64,000 nt of DNA from Gemmatimonadaceae bacterium (lineage in GTDB: Bacteria; Gemmatimonadota; Gemmatimonadetes; Gemmatimonadales; Gemmatimonadaceae). Shown piece after piece: positions 3,205 to 27,637 of the stretch (the first letter of the stretch is position 1; the number at the start of each line of letters is the position of its first letter). Where the stretch lies: assembly GCA_025928185.1 (NCBI GenBank), contig JAICKA010000001.1, positions 124,001 to 188,000 on the forward strand. The letters are read 5' to 3'. The position numbers and the translations under genes are program-made. A model generated the notes under the pieces. That model did no database searches and was not told the origin of the DNA. It worked only from the letters and a program-made list of their open reading frames with translations.

Positions 3205-5652
3205 ATGCTTCTCTTCGATCCAACGGTCTCGAGTGTCGTCGAATCCGACGAGGCGCCCCCGGCGCCGGAGCGCTCTGCGCAGCCGCGCGGCCCGCTCTCC
3301 GACGAACAGCTCGAGCGCATCCACCGCTACTGGTGCGCCGCGAACTACCTCACCGTGGGCCAGATCTTTCTCCAGGAGAATCCCCTGCTGCGCGAGCCGC
3401 TGCGGCCGGAGCACATCAAGCCGCGCCTGCTCGGCCACTGGGGGACGTCGCCCGGATTGAGTCTGCTCTACGTCCACCTCAATCGCCTGATCGTCGAGCA
3501 GGACGTGAACGCGATCTATCTCGCCGGTCCGGGGCACGGCGGACCGGCGGTCGTGGCGAACGTCTATCTCGAAGGCACGTACTCGGAGATCTATCCGGAG
3601 GTTTCGCCGGATACGCCGGGACTCCGGCGACTGTTTAGACAATTCTCAACACCCGGCGGCATCCCGAGCCATGTCAGCGTCCCGACGCCCGGCTCGATTC
3701 ACGAAGGCGGCGAGCTGGGGTACGTGCTCGCGCACGCGTTCGGCGCCGCGTTCGACAACCCCGACCTCGTCGTCGCCGCGGTGGTGGGCGATGGCGAAGC
3801 GGAAACCGGTCCGCTCGAAGGATCGTGGAAGAGCACGGCGTTTCTCAATGCGGCACGCGACGGCGCGGTGCTACCGATCCTCCACCTGAACGGCTACAAG
3901 ATCAGCGGCCCGACGGTCCTCGCGCGCGAGGCGGATGAAGACGTGGTCCGTCTGCTCGAGGGACACGGGTACGATGTCCACGTCGTCGCCGGCGAGGAGC
4001 CCGCGCCCGTGCACCAGGCGCTCGCCGCCGCCCTGGACGCGAGCATCGCGCGCATTCGCGACATTCAGCGCGATGCCCGCGCGCGAGGCGCGGAGCACGC
4101 GGAACGAGTGCGCTGGCCGGCGATCGTGCTCCGCACGCCAAAAGGCTGGACCGGGCCGCGCGTCGTCGACGGCGTACCAGTGGAGGGCACGTTTCGCGCG
4201 CATCAGGTACCGCTGCCGCGCGCACGCACCGATCCGGAACAACTCGCCGCACTCGAGCAATGGATGCGAAGCTATGGGCCGGAGGCGCTGTTCGACGACA
4301 GCGGTCGGTTCGTCCAGGATCTGGCATCGCTCGCACCACGTGGCGACCGGCGCATGGGCGCGAACCCGCACGCCAACGGCGGCCGGCTGCTCGTGCCGCT
4401 GCTCATGCCGAAGTTCCCGGACTACGCGATCGACGTGCCGCGACCGGCCGTCCTGCGCCGCGAATCCACGCGCCAACTCGGACAGCTGGTGCGCGACGTC
4501 TTCGTGCGAAATGCCGAAGCGTGCAACTTCCGCCTGTTCTGCCCGGACGAGACGAACTCCAACCGGCTGACGAGCGTGTTCGACGTCGAGAACCGGAACC
4601 TCGTCGAACGGCGGATCGACATCGACGACCACCTGACGGCGGACGGACGGGTGATGGAGGTCCTGAGCGAGCATCTCTGCGAGGGCTGGCTCGAAGGGTA
4701 TCTGCTCACCGGACGCCACGGTCTGTTCGTGACCTACGAATCGTTCGCCATGGTGTGTGCGTCGATGATCGTGCAGCACACCAAGTGGCTCGAGGAAGCG
4801 GCGAAGCTGCATTGGCGCGCGCCAATCGCGTCGCTCAACATCCTGCTCACGTCGACGTGCTGGCGGAACGATCACAACGGCTTCAGCCATCAAGGGCCCG
4901 GCCTGATCGACGTGATGCTCTCGAAGCGCGGCAGCGTCGCGCGAATCTATTTGCCGCCGGACGCCAATTCCCTGCTCTCCGTCGCCGACCATTGCCTGCG
5001 CTCACACAACTACGTCAACATCATCGTCATCGACAAGCAGCCGCAATTGCAGTGGTTGTCGCTGGACGATGCGTGCGTGCAAGCGGCGGCTGGTGCATCG
5101 ACGTGGGCCTGGGCGAGCACACCCGGCGAGTCCGAGCCCGACGTGGTGCTCGCGTGCGCCGGCGACACGGCGACCCTCGAGACGGTCGCGGCAGCATGGT
5201 GGCTGCGGCGGCTCGCGCCGGAGCTGAAGATCCGCGTCGTCAACGTGGTCGACCTGATGTCGCTCTTCGCGCCGTCGCTGCATCCGCACGGCATGGACGA
5301 GCACCGATTCATCGACCTGTTCACCGAACGGAAGCCGGTGGTATTCGCGTTCCATGGTTACCAGAACGCGCTGCATCAGGTCGTGCACCGCCGGCCGCAC
5401 CCCGGGCGCTTTCACGTGCGCGGCTTCATCGAGCAGGGCACCACGACGACGCCCTTCGACATGGTCGTGCTGAATGAGATGAGCCGGTTCCACCTCGCCA
5501 CGCTCGCCGTGCAGCACTCGTCGCTGCCCAGTCATCGCGCGACGGCAATCGTTGCCGAGCTGCGAACCCACATCGACGACGCCGTCCGCTACGCGCGCGA
5601 TCACTTCGAGGATCAGCCGGAGATCAGCGACTGGACGTGGACGGAGGGATGA
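3205..5652 (+). CDS. xfp: Phosphoketolase (xylulose-5-P / fructose-6-P)
   Basis: The 815-residue thiamine-diphosphate enzyme matches the usual length of bacterial phosphoketolases. It cleaves xylulose 5-phosphate and/or fructose 6-phosphate with phosphate, giving acetyl phosphate plus glyceraldehyde 3-phosphate or erythrose 4-phosphate. Visible landmarks are YWCAANYL near the N-terminus, [19 protein letters not shown], the ThDP motif [14 protein letters not shown] (about residue 195), [11 protein letters not shown], and FSHQGPG in the pyrimidine domain. The divergent ackA gene would turn the acetyl phosphate into acetate and ATP. The upstream 90 bases contain the GGTCCAT repeat. Substrate preference cannot be fixed by eye. 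Confidence 0.96.
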
Positions 5653-20887: not shown

Positions 20888-22105
20888 CTAGTATCGGAAC
20901 GCCACCTTCACGTTCCCCTTGCCACGGTTCATCGCCGCCGCAATCGCCGCCCGGTAGTCGGCGAGGGGGAACGTCTGCGTCACCAGCGGTCCGACCGGCG
21001 CGCGGCCGCTCGCGATCAGCGCCGCGGACTCGGCGAATGCGTCCTGCGTCGCGCCGCCGTGCCCGTGCGCGCCGTAGCAGACGCTGCCGCGCACCGTCAG
21101 CTCCTTGAGCCAGAGCGGCGTCCAGTCGAGCCCATTCAGAGAACTCACATTGCCGAGCAGGACGATCGTGCCGCCGGGGCGGGTGAGGCGAAGCGCGTCG
21201 TCCATGGCCGACGTGCCACCGACGCAGACGAAGGTCATGTCGAATCCGCTGCCGGTGCCGATCGGCCGTCCGATGATCGGTTTCAGCAGCCGTGCATGCC
21301 CGATCTCGGCCAGCTCCTCGAAGTAGTCTCGGCGCGCGCGGACTACCTGCGCGGCGCCGAGCCGGGTCGCGTGCGCCGCCTGGAATTTGTGCCGCGCCAG
21401 CACGGTCACGGAACGCTCCGGCGCCAGGGCGCTGAGCGCCGCCGTCGTCAGCAGTCCGATCGAGCCGGCGCCGATCACGAGCACGCGCGCGCCCGTCGGC
21501 GGCAGATTGCTTCGCACCGCGTGCACCGAACAGGCGAGCGGCTCGATGAGCACCGCCTCCTCGTCCCGCATCGCGTCGGGGACGGGCACCAGCCGCGACT
21601 CGTGCGCCACGAATACCTCGCCCCAACTGCCGCCGGTGTCGCGCGTCGTGCCGATGAGCATGCCCGGCGAAAGCGCGCCGTCGGTGAAATGGGCGCAACG
21701 CGAATGGTCGCCGGCGGCGCACGCGGCGCACGAGGGCTGCATCTCGCGCGGCTCGCAGCAGAGGAGCGGATTCGCCACCACGCGCTGTCCCGGGCGCACG
21801 CTGCGCACCGCGCGCCCCACTTCGATCACCTCGCCCACGTTCTCGTGGCCAAGCACGAACGGGAACGACGAAAAGGGCGACGTCGCCGGACTCGCCTTGA
21901 GCATTATCACATTGAGGTCGCTGCCGCAGATGCCGCCCATCCGCGTGCGGATGCGCACCCATCGCTCATTCGGCAGCGCCGGCTCCAGCGCGTCACCGTA
22001 CGTGGTGCACGCATGCTTGCCGAGATAGAACCGGCGCGACAGGCGACCGGTGGCGCGCGTGGTGAGGTACGTCGGGATCGGCGCCGCGAAGCGGATCGCC
22101 TTCAT
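20888..22105 (-). CDS. Zinc-dependent medium-chain dehydrogenase
   Basis: The 405-residue enzyme has the catalytic-zinc elements GGICGSDLN and GHENVGEV, a structural-zinc cysteine set (CCEPREMQPSCAACAAGDHSRC) and a Rossmann motif VLVIGAGSIGLL. It would oxidise an alcohol or reduce a ketone with NAD(P). Its ATG overlaps the stop of the lipid kinase gene by four bases. In an operon with an oxoamine synthase, reduction of a 3-keto-sphingoid-like intermediate is a reasonable guess, although classical 3-ketosphinganine reductases are short-chain enzymes. Confidence 0.88.
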   Translation of the reverse strand: MKAIRFAAPIPTYLTTRATGRLSRRFYLGKHACTTYGDALEPALPNERWVRIRTRMGGICGSDLNVIMLKASPATSPFSSFPFVLGHENVGEVIEVGRAVRSVRPGQRVVANPLLCCEPREMQPSCAACAAGDHSRCAHFTDGALSPGMLIGTTRDTGGSWGEVFVAHESRLVPVPDAMRDEEAVLIEPLACSVHAVRSNLPPTGARVLVIGAGSIGLLTTAALSALAPERSVTVLARHKFQAAHATRLGAAQVVRARRDYFEELAEIGHARLLKPIIGRPIGTGSGFDMTFVCVGGTSAMDDALRLTRPGGTIVLLGNVSSLNGLDWTPLWLKELTVRGSVCYGAHGHGGATQDAFAESAALIASGRAPVGPLVTQTFPLADYRAAIAAAMNRGKGNVKVAFRY

Positions 22106-23031
22106 GCCTGCGCGGCGGTCGCGATCGGTGTCACGACGCGGAGCGCGCGAGGCACGCAGCGCACCTCCAGTGTCGGCGAGCTGGCGCGATTGTACTCGCC
22201 GTCGGTCTCGTAGGCCGGCGGCGACGGAAACGACAGCGTGAAGCTCGACGCCTGCTCGGTGCGCACTTCAGGCTGGCTGCCGTGCGTGCCGCGCGAGGCC
22301 GCGGCAAACAGGCGCATGCGTCTCAAGGGCGAAGCGGTGCGGATGGCGATCGCGTCGAGCCGTCCGTCCGTGAGGCTCGCCTCGGGCGCGATGCGAAACG
22401 CGCCGCCGAAGTTGCGCCCGTTGGCGATGATCAACATCAGGTGCTGCACCACACCGCGACGTTCCTTGAGCGTGGTGACGTCGATCGCAATGCCGGCGTA
22501 GCCGAACAGCTGGCGCAGCGCCGAGTACGCGTAGACGAGATCGCCCCGCAGCAGCGTGATCTTCTCCACGTCCTCGAGCACGGCGGTGTCGAAGCCGAAG
22601 CCGGTGACGTTGAGAAAATACTTGCCCTCGATGCGCCCGACGTCGACCGCGACATCCGGCCCGTCGATCGCGAGTCGAGCGGTGGCGACGTAATCCGTCG
22701 CCGGCACGCCGACGGTCTTGGCGAAATCATTGCCGGTCCCGGCGGCGGCGAGCCCGAGCCGCACGTCGGCGCGCGACGTGATGATCGCGTTCGCGACGTT
22801 GCTCCACGTCCCGTCGCCACCGACGGCGACGATGGTCCGCGCCCCTTCCTCGATCGCATGCAGCGCGAACACACGCTCGTCGCCGCGCGCCCGGGTCGCG
22901 CGCACGTCGGTGACGCCGACGTCGGCGAACGCACGGCGAACCTGTGCTTCCACTTTGGCGCCGCGCCCTTTGCCCGCTGCCGGGTTCAGGATGACGCAGA
23001 CGCCCGCACCTCCCCCACCACCAGCCGCCAT
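22102..23031 (-). CDS. Diacylglycerol/sphingosine kinase-family lipid kinase
   Basis: The 309-residue protein matches the YegS/DagK catalytic fold: CVILNPAAGKGRG at the N-terminus, VAVGGDGTWSNVANAI, LGLAAAGTGNDFAKTVG, NVTGFGFDTAVLEDVEK and PEASLTDGRLDAIAIRT. Such kinases phosphorylate the hydroxyl of diacylglycerol, ceramide or a sphingoid base with ATP. The start base is shared with the TGA of the preceding gene (TGATG), and the stop overlaps the dehydrogenase start, so the operon is translationally coupled. With an oxoamine synthase upstream, a sphingoid-base kinase role is attractive; diacylglycerol remains the default. Confidence 0.88.
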   Translation of the reverse strand: MAAGGGGGAGVCVILNPAAGKGRGAKVEAQVRRAFADVGVTDVRATRARGDERVFALHAIEEGARTIVAVGGDGTWSNVANAIITSRADVRLGLAAAGTGNDFAKTVGVPATDYVATARLAIDGPDVAVDVGRIEGKYFLNVTGFGFDTAVLEDVEKITLLRGDLVYAYSALRQLFGYAGIAIDVTTLKERRGVVQHLMLIIANGRNFGGAFRIAPEASLTDGRLDAIAIRTASPLRRMRLFAAASRGTHGSQPEVRTEQASSFTLSFPSPPAYETDGEYNRASSPTLEVRCVPRALRVVTPIATAAQA

Positions 23032-23729
23032 CAGCGCGGCGCGAACGACGCCAGCTGTTGCAGCGGATGGAACGTCTGCAGGCCGTTGCGCATCCACAGC
23101 TCGCGGAACGGCGTGACGTCCACCTCCCAGTCGGTGAGCAGATTGGTCATCGCCTGCGAGTGGATCACGATGCCGCCGCGCTCCTCCTCGTTCTCGCTGA
23201 ACTGGCCGGCCATCTCGATGATCGAGCTGTACGCGCCGTCGTCGTCGTTCATGAACGCCTGGTACGGATGCGATACCTTCGACCACTCGTGCTCGGTGAC
23301 CGTCATGTCGACGATCGGCTCGCCGCGATCGGTGGCGTTGATGGTGATGTGGCCGTCGCCCCGCTCCCAGGCGATCGAGATGTCCTGCATGTAGTGCGGC
23401 AGGTGCCAGCGCTCGATCGCGTGCTCGCGCGACTCCGTGGTGGTCGTGCCGAGGCGGAATGGCCAGAACGCCGAGCGCGGCCACGGCTGCCCCTGTTCGA
23501 CGCGCGGCGACACGAGAATGGAGAGGATCAGCTCCCCGTACTCACCGACCGGGCTGTCGTGGAAGTCGAACGCCATCACGGACAGCACGCTCGAGCCGTG
23601 GTGCGGTTCGATCGGCTGGAGATCGGACGGCAGGATCGCGCGCGCGTTTTCCGTCGGAAACTCGAAGAACCCGCCGATGGCGTCGCGGAAGTGATACTGG
23701 ACGAAGTCGGAATGACTGCTGCTGCTCAT
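23031..23729 (-). CDS. Acetoacetate decarboxylase-fold protein lacking catalytic Lys
   Basis: A 232-residue ADC-superfamily protein. PTENARAILPSDLQPIEP and the later SVLSVMAFDF strand fit the family, but the block that carries the Schiff-base lysine in true acetoacetate decarboxylases (PKK) reads HLPHYMQDISIAW here, with no Lys. Decarboxylation by the usual imine mechanism is therefore unlikely; a lipid-binding or different catalytic role is more probable. It overlaps the oxoamine synthase stop (ATGA) and shares one base with the kinase start. Conserved placement inside this operon would argue for a role in the same lipid. Confidence 0.75.
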   Translation of the reverse strand: MSSSSHSDFVQYHFRDAIGGFFEFPTENARAILPSDLQPIEPHHGSSVLSVMAFDFHDSPVGEYGELILSILVSPRVEQGQPWPRSAFWPFRLGTTTTESREHAIERWHLPHYMQDISIAWERGDGHITINATDRGEPIVDMTVTEHEWSKVSHPYQAFMNDDDGAYSSIIEMAGQFSENEEERGGIVIHSQAMTNLLTDWEVDVTPFRELWMRNGLQTFHPLQQLASFAPR

Positions 23730-25021
23730 ACGAGAATCCTCTCTTCACGAAGCACATGGACGAGCGTGGCGACCCCCGCGTCGAGCTGCTCGCGGGTATG
23801 GGACGCCGAGACGGAGACGCGGAAGCGCGAGCGATGCTTGGCCACCGCGGGATAGATCACGGGCTGGAGATAGATGCCGGCCCGGAGAAGCTTGTGACAG
23901 ATCTCGAACACGCGCCGGTCGTTCCGGAGCATGATCGGGATCACCTGCGACGTCGATTCGCCGACGTCCACGCCCGCCTCATCGAGCAGGCCGCGGATGT
24001 ACCGAACGTTGTCCCACAGCTGATCGCGCAGCTGCGGCTCGGCTTGCGCCAGCTCGAGCGACTTGAGCACGCCGGCCGTGACGACCGGCGACAGCGCGCA
24101 CGAGAACACGCGCGACCGCGCGAAGCCCTTGAGATAATTGTAGAGGCTGCGCGGTCCGGCGACGTACCCGCCCTGCCCGCCGAGCGCCTTCGAGAAGGTG
24201 CCGATGTGGATGTCCACTTCGTCCTCGAGCCCGTACAGCTCGGCCACGCCGCGGCCGTTCGCGCCGTAGACGAATGCCGAGTGCGCCTCGTCGAGCATGA
24301 TCCGCGCGCCGTATTTCTTGGCGACGGCGACGAGCTCCGGCAGCGGGCACACGTCGCCGTCCATCGAGTACACGCCCTCGATGGCGACGAGCTTCTTGCC
24401 GGCGGCGTGCTTGAGCTTGCGCTCGAGATCCGCCGGGTTGTTGTGCCGGAAGAAGCGCACGTTTGCCTTCGACAGGATCGCGCCGTCGACGATGCTCGCG
24501 TGCGCGTTCTGATCGGCGATCACCCAATCTCCCGGCCGCATCAGGCCGGCGATCATGCCGACGTTGGTGCTGTAGCCGGTCGGGAAGACCATCGCCGCTT
24601 CCTTGAGCTTGAACTTCGCGAGCGCCTCCTCGAGCTGCACGTGGATGTCCATCATGCCGCTCAGGATCGGCGAGCCCGCCGCGCCGAGGCCGTACCGGTC
24701 GAGCGCCGCCTTCGCCGCCGCGATCACCTCGGGGCGGAAGGACAGTCCGAGGTAATTGTACGACGACAGATTGATCAGCCGGACCTGTTTGCGCTCGAGC
24801 CCTTCGGTGAGATTGATCTCACCCTGGGGCGGCGTTGACATGGCCTGGGAGAACAGATAGTAACCCTGCGGCAGCGCACGCTCGAACCAGTCGTTGTATG
24901 GTCCGAGCACGGCGAACGGGTCGTCGCTCGTCGAGTAGAAGAAATTGCTATAGTCGTAGTCCGAGACGTTCGGGGGTTGCGCTTCGAGCGGCTCGGGCTG
25001 CGCTTCGACCGGTAAAGACAT
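23726..25021 (-). CDS. Alpha-oxoamine synthase, serine-palmitoyltransferase-like
   Basis: The 431-residue PLP enzyme belongs to the family that joins an amino acid and an acyl-CoA to give an alpha-amino ketone. Features are SSYNYLGLSFRPEV, GLGAAGSPILSG, the stacking and Asp regions LDEAHSAFVYG, and the PLP lysine in GTFSKALGGQGG. The GTFSK form (not TLGKAFG of ALA or KAPA synthases) and the ~40-residue N-terminal lead (DYDYSNFFYSTSDDPFAVLGPYNDW) favour serine palmitoyltransferase. A GGAGGT site 6 bases before the ATG at 25021 fixes the start. It is the first gene of the lipid operon. KAPA or other amino-ketone products are alternatives. Confidence 0.85.
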   Translation of the reverse strand: MSLPVEAQPEPLEAQPPNVSDYDYSNFFYSTSDDPFAVLGPYNDWFERALPQGYYLFSQAMSTPPQGEINLTEGLERKQVRLINLSSYNYLGLSFRPEVIAAAKAALDRYGLGAAGSPILSGMMDIHVQLEEALAKFKLKEAAMVFPTGYSTNVGMIAGLMRPGDWVIADQNAHASIVDGAILSKANVRFFRHNNPADLERKLKHAAGKKLVAIEGVYSMDGDVCPLPELVAVAKKYGARIMLDEAHSAFVYGANGRGVAELYGLEDEVDIHIGTFSKALGGQGGYVAGPRSLYNYLKGFARSRVFSCALSPVVTAGVLKSLELAQAEPQLRDQLWDNVRYIRGLLDEAGVDVGESTSQVIPIMLRNDRRVFEICHKLLRAGIYLQPVIYPAVAKHRSRFRVSVSASHTREQLDAGVATLVHVLREERILV

Positions 25022-25033
25022 GGTGACCTCCAT

Positions 25034-25915
25034 TTGAACGGCGATAGTCCGGGCCAGATCGACCAGCCTGCGAATCTCGACACTCACCCGGCGCAATTCG
25101 GACGGGGGCTTCGCAGCGGCGCGTTCGTCGCCCTCTTTGCGTGTTACTCACTACTGTTCATCGGCCTCGGACAACGACTCGTCGTCTGGCCGATGGTCAC
25201 GTTATTTCCACGGCGGCGAGCGGCCGTGATCCGCGTCTGGCTCCGCATGCAGGCGCACGCCACGCTCGCCCTGGCCCGCGTCGTCGCGGGCGTGCGGCTC
25301 ACGGTGCGCGGCGCCATTCCGCCGCGGAGCTGCATCGTCGTGATGAACCATCAATCGGTCCTCGACATTCCGCTCGGGGTCTGGCTCATCCGTGGACCCC
25401 AGGTGCTGATTCCAACGCGCGACCGGTACCGGCGCGGCGTGCCCGGCATCTCGCCGCTCGTGCGGCTCGCCGGCTTTCCCATCGTGTCGCAGAAGCGCAC
25501 GATCACGCGCGAGGAGCTGCAGGGGCTGACCGATGCCGCCGACCTCGTCGCGCGCGGCGAACGCACGCTGCTCATCTTTCCCGAAGGGCACCGCACTCGC
25601 GACGGCGCCATCGGGCGGTTCATGCGCAGCGGCCTCCGCATCATGCTCGGCCGCACGAACGGTCCCGTGTACTGCGTGGTCGCCGACGGCATGACGAGCG
25701 CGCGCACGACGAGCGACGCGGTCACCGGGTTCGGCGCCGCGGAGGTCCGCGTGACCATTCTCGGTCCGTTCACGTTCGGTGGACCTTCGACGCCCGAGGC
25801 CATCGACGCATTCATGGAATCGCTACGACAGCGAATGGTCGACACGCTCACCGCCATGCGCGCTGAAGCCGCCGATGCACCGATCGATGCCGCCACACCC
25901 GCCCCCGCTCGCTGA
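25034..25915 (+). CDS. PlsC-family acyltransferase
   Basis: The 293-residue membrane enzyme has an N-terminal helix (residues ~30-55) and 1-acylglycerol-3-phosphate acyltransferase motifs: NHQSVLD (HxxxxD), GFPIVSQKR, and FPEGHRTRDG. It would transfer acyl groups onto lysophosphatidate or a related amine/alcohol. The TTG at 25034 is the only start that includes the first helix; an ATG at 25192 would remove it. If right, only 12 bases separate it from the divergent synthase start. It begins a three-gene run with a Tam41-like and a CDP-alcohol transferase, so it likely makes the lipid that is then activated with CTP. Confidence 0.85.
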   Translation: MNGDSPGQIDQPANLDTHPAQFGRGLRSGAFVALFACYSLLFIGLGQRLVVWPMVTLFPRRRAAVIRVWLRMQAHATLALARVVAGVRLTVRGAIPPRSCIVVMNHQSVLDIPLGVWLIRGPQVLIPTRDRYRRGVPGISPLVRLAGFPIVSQKRTITREELQGLTDAADLVARGERTLLIFPEGHRTRDGAIGRFMRSGLRIMLGRTNGPVYCVVADGMTSARTTSDAVTGFGAAEVRVTILGPFTFGGPSTPEAIDAFMESLRQRMVDTLTAMRAEAADAPIDAATPAPAR

Positions 25916-26894
25916 TCCGGAGATGCGCCGCGTGCTGGCGACGGGGTTGGAGACCCCGGCGTCGCCACGGGCCGCACAGCTGGCCGAGTTTCTCGCCGAC
26001 GCGTTCGGTCCGACGACCGTTGGGTTGCTGCACTACGGCTCGCACGCCCACAGCGCGGATGCTCGCGCCGAAAGCGCTCACGACTTTCTCGTGATCGTTG
26101 ATGATTATCTGATGGCGTACCGCTCGCTGGCCGCACGCGTCGGCACCAGCTATCGGCCCCGCACCGCGGCGTGGCTGAATCGCGTTCTGCCGCCGAACGT
26201 GATCTCGGTGACCGATTCGAGTGCGACACCGCCGCTCCACGCCAAGTGCGCGGTGTTCTCGCTGTTTCACTTTCAGCGTGCGTGCTCGACACGGGCCCGC
26301 GATCATTTCGTTCGCGGACGATTGTTCCAGCCGGCGCAACTGCTGTGGACGCGCGATGCCGACGCCCGGCGAACGGTGACCGAGGCCGTGCTCGAAGTGC
26401 GCGCCGGCGCGTTCGAACGCCGCCGCGCTTCGCTGCCGTTGCGCTTCGACGTGGAAGCGTACTGTCGCGCGATGATCGCAACGTCGTTCGCTGCCGAGAT
26501 CCGCCCCGAACGTCCGGAGCGGGTCGAAGCGATTCTCGCGGCTCAGCGCACAGAGATCGTTCCAATGTATGCGGCGTTGCTACGGTGGCTCGGTCGCGCG
26601 GGGGTGCTCGACCCGGAAGGAGAGACGTACCGGGACCCGTACCCGAGGGGGTGGTGGGAGCGGTTCCGGCTGGCGAGATATTACCGCCGCAGCAAGCTGC
26701 GGGCGACGCTACGCTGGGTCAAGTATATCGCGTTGTACGACAATTGGCTGGATTACGTTTCAGAAAAGGTGGCCCGGCGCAGCGGTGTGGTGATCGAGCT
26801 CACCGAGCGCGAGCGGCGGTGGCCGCTCATCTTTCTGTGGCCGAAGGCCATCCGATATCTGCGGCATCGGCCACAGCGCCAGAGTGAACCCTGA
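25887..26894 (+). CDS. Tam41-like CDP-lipid synthase (nucleotidyltransferase fold)
   Basis: About 335 residues with a pattern matching mitochondrial Tam41 (PF09139): HYGS followed by HDFLVIVDDYLMAYRSL (GS...D-F-x-x-x-V-x-D of the nucleotidyltransferase core), PNVISV, HAKCAVFSLFHFQRAC (like IKYGVV...L..DL), DHFVRGRLFQPAQLLW (like YxAGRLxKPV), and a helical C-terminus ending in MYAALLRWLG. Tam41 makes CDP-diacylglycerol from CTP and phosphatidate, which fits perfectly between an acyltransferase and a CDP-alcohol phosphatidyltransferase. The start is uncertain (25875, 25887 or 25923); 25923 follows the acyltransferase stop with GGAG directly adjacent. Family assignment is by motif pattern only. 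Confidence 0.65.
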   Translation: MPPHPPPLADPEMRRVLATGLETPASPRAAQLAEFLADAFGPTTVGLLHYGSHAHSADARAESAHDFLVIVDDYLMAYRSLAARVGTSYRPRTAAWLNRVLPPNVISVTDSSATPPLHAKCAVFSLFHFQRACSTRARDHFVRGRLFQPAQLLWTRDADARRTVTEAVLEVRAGAFERRRASLPLRFDVEAYCRAMIATSFAAEIRPERPERVEAILAAQRTEIVPMYAALLRWLGRAGVLDPEGETYRDPYPRGWWERFRLARYYRRSKLRATLRWVKYIALYDNWLDYVSEKVARRSGVVIELTERERRWPLIFLWPKAIRYLRHRPQRQSEP

Positions 26895-26902
26895 AAAATT
26901 CG

Positions 26903-27637
26903 ATGACTGCCTACATCGCGCTGGTGCTTGCCGGCCTCGCTGTGCTCACGATGCCGATCTACGCCGTGGTGACGCGCGGTCGCCCGATCGATCCCGAAGT
27001 CGCTCGCCGGCCGACCACGGTTCTGCTCGGCTACTGGATTCGCGACTGGGTGATGTGGACGATTCGCCCGCTCGAGCGCGCGTTGATCGCCAGCCGGATC
27101 GATCCAGCCGTGCTCAATGTGACCGGCGCCTTGCTCGGCCTCGCTGCCGGCATCGCCTATGTCGAGCGGCAGCCCGGGGTCGCGGGCTGGTGCATTCTGC
27201 TCGGTGGGCTCGCCGACATCATGGACGGTCGGATCGCGCGAGCGCGAAACATGGTGTCGACCTTTGGCGAGTTCCTCGACTCGGTGCTCGATCGCTTCGC
27301 CGAGGTGTTCGCGTTCGTAGGACTCGCGTTCTACCTCGCGTGGTCGCCGTGGGGCGTGTTGGCGACGACGCTCGCAGCCGGCAGCTCGCTGCTCGTGAGC
27401 TACGCGCGCGCCAAAGCGGGCCAGGTCGGCGTCGACTGTCGCGGCGGCGTGATGCAGCGCGCCGAACGCCTCGTGCTGCTCGCCCTTGCGTCACTCCTCG
27501 ACGGGCCGCTCGCGGCCGCAACAGACTGGCCGGAAGGTGCGGTGCTGCTGGCAGTGGTCGCGCTGATCGGTATTGGCGCGTTCGGCACGGCGGTATTTCG
27601 CACGGTCGTCGTTGCGCGGGTGTTGCGCCGGTCCTGA
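26903..27637 (+). CDS. CDP-alcohol phosphatidyltransferase
   Basis: The 244-residue membrane enzyme carries the complete class-I signature DG-x2-AR-x8-G-x3-D-x3-D as DGRIARARNMVSTFGEFLDSVLD (about residues 109-131 including the preceding Asp), with six or so helices. It moves a phospholipid moiety from a CDP-lipid onto an alcohol such as inositol phosphate, glycerol phosphate or serine, releasing CMP. It starts 8 bases after the Tam41-like gene, so the two act in sequence. The head group cannot be read from the sequence; presence of a long pre-domain helix (residues 1-60) is notable. Confidence 0.9.
   Translation: MTAYIALVLAGLAVLTMPIYAVVTRGRPIDPEVARRPTTVLLGYWIRDWVMWTIRPLERALIASRIDPAVLNVTGALLGLAAGIAYVERQPGVAGWCILLGGLADIMDGRIARARNMVSTFGEFLDSVLDRFAEVFAFVGLAFYLAWSPWGVLATTLAAGSSLLVSYARAKAGQVGVDCRGGVMQRAERLVLLALASLLDGPLAAATDWPEGAVLLAVVALIGIGAFGTAVFRTVVVARVLRRS

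Follow-up and report, generated by a model that had tools for sequence, protein, structure and literature searches.

The window analysed here, a stretch of 64,000 nucleotides from a Gemmatimonadaceae bacterium, contains a seven-gene cassette. A zinc dehydrogenase, a YegS kinase, an acetoacetate-decarboxylase (ADC)-like protein and a serine-palmitoyltransferase-like synthase are encoded on one strand, and a PlsC-type acyltransferase, a Tam41-like protein and a CDP-alcohol transferase run divergently from them. The features, in window coordinates, are as follows:

20888..22105, minus strand: zinc-type medium-chain dehydrogenase (PF08240/PF00107)
22102..23070, minus strand: YegS/DAGK-type lipid kinase (PF00781, E 2.6e-25; TIGR00147 above cut-off; GGDGT motif); the interval runs slightly past the gene at its 5' end
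23031..23729, minus strand: ADC-family protein (PF06314, E 2.8e-7, 30.7 bits against a cut-off of 29.8)
23726..25096, minus strand: alpha-oxoamine synthase of the serine-palmitoyltransferase/BioF/Kbl superfamily (PF00155; PLP lysine in TFSK; start uncertain)
25034..25915, plus strand: PlsC-family acyltransferase (PF01553, E 3.3e-12; HX4D and FPEG motifs; start codon uncertain)
25887..26894, plus strand: Tam41-like (CpgC-like) nucleotidyltransferase of 335 amino acids, proposed CTP:lipid-phosphate cytidylyltransferase (start codon approximate)
26903..27637, plus strand: CDP-alcohol phosphatidyltransferase (PF01066, E 9.9e-15; intact D-x2-DG-x2-AR-x8-G-x3-D-x3-D)

The Tam41-like frame is open for 335 codons without interruption and encodes the nucleotidyltransferase core HYGSHAHSADARAESAHDFLVIVDDY. 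Together with the homologues found in several phyla, this shows that the frame is a real gene; the GS...HDFLVIVDDY core read in the initial annotation is present, and the Pfam matches of its neighbours confirm its placement between PlsC and a CDP-alcohol transferase. The start of the gene overlaps the 3' end of the PlsC-family gene (stop at 25915), and the CDP-alcohol phosphatidyltransferase gene begins 8 bases 3' of its end, so that these three genes look like one operon. The window's kinase, synthase, PlsC and CDP-alcohol transferase all retain their catalytic motifs.

The nearest solved structures to the CDP-alcohol transferase are phosphatidylinositol-phosphate synthases (PDB 6h53, E 4e-13), and its NCBIfam scores lie below cut-off for both NF040950 (archaetidylinositol phosphate synthase; 127 vs 180 bits) and NF045883 (84 vs 170 bits). 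An inositol-1-phosphate synthase, considered as a pointer to an inositol-based head group, proved uninformative, being found in 19/19 carriers of the Tam41-like gene but also in 106/118 family genomes. The cassette synthase likewise misses the NCBIfam cut-offs for serine palmitoyltransferase, with 361.8 vs 640 bits for NF047600 and 345.8 vs 500 for NF047599. In a tree with long branches it forms a clade of its own and does not group with serine palmitoyltransferase, Kbl or BioF. No cassette gene was recognised as a ceramide synthase of the bacterial kind known so far.

Conservation of the cassette across phyla

Carriers of the Tam41-like gene make up 16 of the 118 sampled Gemmatimonadaceae genomes, at 50-63% identity to the query. 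Around 50 full-length members were found in 298 Gemmatimonadota genomes, most of them from another family of the same class, with further full-length relatives in Acidobacteriota, Eisenbacteria and Krumholzibacteriota. The cassette recurs in all four phyla with its order and strands kept. An all-versus-all comparison of 45 neighbourhoods recovered the Tam41-like gene in 45/45, the CDP-alcohol transferase in at least 44, PlsC in at least 43, the ADC-like gene in at least 41, the lipid kinase in at least 39, the synthase in at least 32 and the dehydrogenase in at least 20; these are lower bounds, as contigs sometimes end within the cassette. The ADC-family protein, which sits in place wherever counted, is itself a near-constant member. 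Dehydrogenase genes belong to the cassettes of Gemmatimonadaceae, Acidobacteriota, Eisenbacteria and Krumholzibacteriota, and none was seen in Gemmatimonadota family f5. No eighth conserved gene occupies a fixed place across phyla in the 45 neighbourhoods, the other recurrent groups of reading frames resembling either out-of-frame shadows of cassette genes or lineage-local neighbours. We found no description of the cassette in the literature searched.

The association between the Tam41-like gene and the synthase extends beyond adjacency. All nine genomes tested in which the synthase is not adjacent have an orthologue elsewhere (57-61% identity), and among the 118 family genomes a synthase orthologue is present in 15 of 16 carriers compared with 3 of 102 non-carriers. 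The corresponding Fisher p of 3.5e-15 counts related genomes as independent and therefore overstates the evidence.

Several observations concern the distribution of individual genes. In the five genomes sampled from the same genus, neither the Tam41-like gene (0/5) nor the cassette synthase (0/5) was found, and a phosphoketolase-like gene at 3247-5646 of the window is missing from both same-genus genomes tested (0/2); these absences may reflect horizontal transfer, loss or a binning error. The cassette synthases of an 'Acidimicrobiia' MAG (L072) and a Vicinamibacterales MAG (L073) differ very little, so that L072 is probably misassigned or its synthase recently transferred. Apart from the cassette synthase, some family f5 Gemmatimonadota (L111, L112 and L114) encode an additional serine-palmitoyltransferase-like gene, which in L111 and L114 reaches 463 and 454 bits with NF047600 and so falls short of the cut-off of 640.

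Relationship to Tam41 in sequence and predicted fold

As a single query the Tam41-like protein matched no Pfam family at E<=1, PF09139 and PF01148 included, and single-sequence searches of NCBIfam, PHROGs and the PDB gave no useful match. The PF09139 profile found nothing in the protein's own genome, nor did it in control genomes, and a search for Tam41 on plasmids returned none. When 47 relatives were scanned, 19 matched PF09139 at E<1 (best 2.5e-6), and one of them, L085, passed the gathering score with 26.6 bits against 24. The PF09139 search suggested in the initial annotation thus fails for the protein itself and gives matches, one of them above the cut-off, for a part of its relatives.

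Comparison of profiles gave a clearer picture. The family profile matched SpTam41 (6ig2/6ig4) weakly in the PDB (E 0.07), and hhalign of the family against two solved Tam41s produced a colinear match at E 3e-6 over 189 columns; the control, an alignment of the neighbouring transferase, gave 0.8% probability over 19 columns. The earlier reading of sequence blocks in the same order as in Tam41 is therefore upheld.

The residues conserved within the family fall at positions shared with Tam41. G51, S52 and D66 are invariant in 47/47 rows of alignment A3 and 19/19 of alignment A1, and position 68 is hydrophobic or aromatic among the residues tallied in both, the Asp that normally closes DxD being absent. 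K120, R145, E204 and R206, also invariant in A1 (n=19) and A3 (n=47) and found in practically every member, align with the Lys of KYG, the Arg of GRFQKP and the [DE]xR of Tam41, so that the YGS, single Asp, Lys, Arg and [DE]xR positions are common to the Tam41-like protein and Tam41/TAMM41. At its active-site Asp, Tam41 reads D-F-I or D-L-I, likewise with a single Asp, and of the three acidic residues normally present it has been reported to retain only one (PMC11646218). Judged from these alignments, the putative reduced active site, with GS, one acidic residue and no DxD, matches the Tam41 type. The C-terminal region (251-335) carries a net charge of +13, with a hydrophobic moment of about 0.43 at 314-331, and is possibly a counterpart of the C-terminal amphipathic membrane-binding helix of Tam41. 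Its conserved part (R276, K279, Y290, K294 and RRWP) falls outside the hhalign match to Tam41.

An AlphaFold2 model built from alignment A3 (47 sequences) has a mean pLDDT of 91.1 and a pTM of 0.89. The best Foldseek matches to this model are FbTam41 from Firmicutes (7ecd; E 7e-8), followed by SpTam41 (6ig4). VIA comparison gave Z 19.6 with 7ecd over 246 aligned residues (rmsd 3.3 Å) and Z 17.4 and 17.1 with SpTam41, the Tam41 matches spanning model residues 23-284, 6-262 and 10-262; the next family, the aminoglycoside nucleotidyltransferases, reached Z 7.1. Both programs place a Tam41-type second domain after the nucleotidyltransferase domain, and the fold is common to the model and Tam41/TAMM41 (6ig2, 6ig4, 7ecd) through both domains at only about 14% structural identity.

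The nucleotidyltransferase superfamily is highly diverse, and with aminoglycoside nucleotidyltransferases as the next structural match it is conceivable that the protein belongs to the same superfamily and acts on a non-lipid substrate, for example as a small-molecule or protein nucleotidyl modifier. We consider this very improbable, given the wide gap in Z between Tam41 and the next family across the whole nucleotidyltransferase and second domain, the lipid enzymes that surround the gene in the cassette, and a C-terminus that is conserved, cationic and hydrophobic. The predicted fold, the profile comparison and the PF09139 matches of relatives all agree on a Tam41-like identity, as originally suggested. 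On this evidence, the protein is best described as a divergent sister clade of Tam41; by the curated cut-off it falls outside PF09139.

Proteobacterial relatives and the CpgC step

Relatives of the Tam41-like protein annotated as 'hypothetical' occur on proteobacterial plasmids, at 24-30% identity by alignment. Alignment A3 matches this plasmid group over residues 11-328 (hhalign 100%, E 3e-40), and the plasmid CpgC-like group alone gives a weak, colinear match to Tam41 (3%, E 0.014). Of the five plasmid loci read, four have the relative immediately next to a lipid kinase gene; in the remaining one, from Diaphorobacter, it lies three genes from such a kinase. In Roseomonas (L021, L023) the gene order is LptG, LptF, HIT, metallophosphoesterase, CDP-alcohol transferase, ceramide-kinase-like lipid kinase, Tam41-like relative, serine palmitoyltransferase and acyl carrier protein, with a synthase that scores above the NCBIfam threshold for serine palmitoyltransferase. 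Plasmids of Diaphorobacter (L019, pDCB2), Pseudomonas (L020, pPNP1) and Roseomonas (L021, L023) carry phosphosphingolipid-type clusters that include LptF/LptG-like permeases, and among these plasmids pDCB2 is typed as conjugative IncP.

The order in Caulobacter is CC_1159 (CDP-alcohol transferase), CC_1160 (the ceramide kinase CpgB), CC_1161 (CpgC) and CC_1162 (spt) (PMC11324152). The place of CpgC (CC_1161, ccna_01219) is held in the same-order Roseomonas clusters by homologues of the Tam41-like protein, and gene order thus suggests that these relatives are CpgC orthologues. CpgC is needed for the conversion of ceramide-1-phosphate to ceramide phosphoglycerate by a mechanism 'yet unidentified' (PMC12275187), and reports from 2025 and 2026 still describe it in this way (PMC12275187, PMC13228409). 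The authors of PMC11324152 noted that the InterPro domain of CC_1161 suggests a CDP-DAG synthase and proposed an NDP-activated ceramide. The idea of CDP-ceramide as the product of CpgC is therefore theirs; the present analysis adds independent fold evidence for the family and widens the scope to further phyla and backbones. In the literature searched we found no papers on CDP-ceramide. In Caulobacter the head groups are glycerate and are made by CpgD and CpgA, whereas no CpgD-like gene was seen in the cassette.

CdsA and the candidate lipid substrate

Tam41 is already known in bacteria, and the unusual feature here is the gene context. The Firmicutes Tam41 (crystal structure 7ecd) is reported to have CDP-DAG synthase activity (PMC11646218, citing Kimura et al. 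2022). Unlike the mitochondrial and Firmicutes CDP-DAG synthases, the Tam41-like protein is encoded within a cassette for what seems to be a special lipid, and its hosts retain CdsA. This unrelated integral membrane protein, with which the Tam41-like enzyme would share its type of reaction (CTP plus a lipid phosphate), has a gene of its own in this genome (PF01148, contig C164) and in 18/18 other carriers tested. With CdsA present in 19/19 carriers, the Tam41-like enzyme is unnecessary for ordinary CDP-diacylglycerol, and the proposal that the gene fills the place of CdsA was rejected.

It could still be argued that the protein serves as an additional CDP-diacylglycerol synthase, independent of CdsA and with ordinary phosphatidic acid as its substrate, the kinase and PlsC doing no more than supply phosphatidate. 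Such a role would be consistent with the predicted Tam41 fold and with the CDP-DAG product reported for the characterised bacterial Tam41 (PMC11646218); by family function PlsC and the YegS-type kinase can each give phosphatidate, and the CDP-alcohol transferase resembles phosphatidylinositol-phosphate synthase. We nevertheless regard it as unlikely, as CdsA is never missing from the carriers tested, the gene co-occurs tightly with the serine-palmitoyltransferase-like synthase, and the genetics of CpgC in Caulobacter deal with ceramide phosphate (PMC11324152). The label of CDP-diacylglycerol synthase in the initial annotation is for this reason not retained: the content of the cassette and the proteobacterial sphingolipid clusters favour a different lipid phosphate.

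The single sampled carrier without the synthase, G092, offers a glycerol-based context. Here the Tam41-like gene and CDP-alcohol transferase are retained as a pair (L097:8341-14783) that adjoins an alkyl-dihydroxyacetonephosphate synthase (PDB 4bby, E 6e-148) and a fatty acyl reductase/acyltransferase fusion, in what is a probable bacterial ether-lipid locus. Because the pair sits with ether-lipid genes, the substrate of the Tam41-like enzyme may be a glycerol-based phosphatidic acid, a point in favour of the CDP-diacylglycerol role. The same context makes the pair look like a portable module that activates whichever special lipid its neighbours provide. Tentatively, and with somewhat more doubt than conviction, we propose that the Tam41-fold enzyme and the CDP-alcohol transferase form a portable CDP-activation module, deployed with the synthase cassette in several phyla, with ether-lipid genes in a single lineage or with a proteobacterial ceramide kinase, and that CDP-ceramide-type intermediates really exist and are widespread among bacteria.

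For the protein in the window, we favour a putative membrane-associated Tam41-fold CTP:lipid-phosphate cytidylyltransferase that makes a CDP-ceramide-like product for head-group transfer, and place the probability of this reading at roughly 70%. The cassette as a whole appears to make a membrane lipid that is unusual and may resemble sphingolipids. In this model, the serine-palmitoyltransferase-like synthase would form the backbone of the special lipid, the PlsC-type acyltransferase would add its second chain and the YegS-type kinase would phosphorylate it to a lipid phosphate. The Tam41-like enzyme would then transfer CMP from CTP onto the lipid phosphate, releasing pyrophosphate and generating a CDP-lipid that would be CDP-ceramide-like rather than CDP-diacylglycerol, before the CDP-alcohol phosphatidyltransferase put a head group, which might be inositol phosphate, in the place of CMP. 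The result would be a pool of CDP-lipid apart from that made by CdsA. A sphingoid backbone for this lipid is a guess, because the clade of the synthase lies apart from serine palmitoyltransferases of proven type and the synthase misses the NCBIfam cut-offs.

Relatives of the Tam41-like protein may account for a step of bacterial sphingolipid synthesis that has so far resisted explanation, that of CpgC, and the fold evidence makes this step directly testable as the conversion of CTP and ceramide-1-phosphate to CDP-ceramide. More broadly, the cassette points to a CDP-lipid route parallel to CdsA in Gemmatimonadota, Acidobacteriota and their relatives, and indicates that the Tam41 fold may reach beyond CDP-diacylglycerol.
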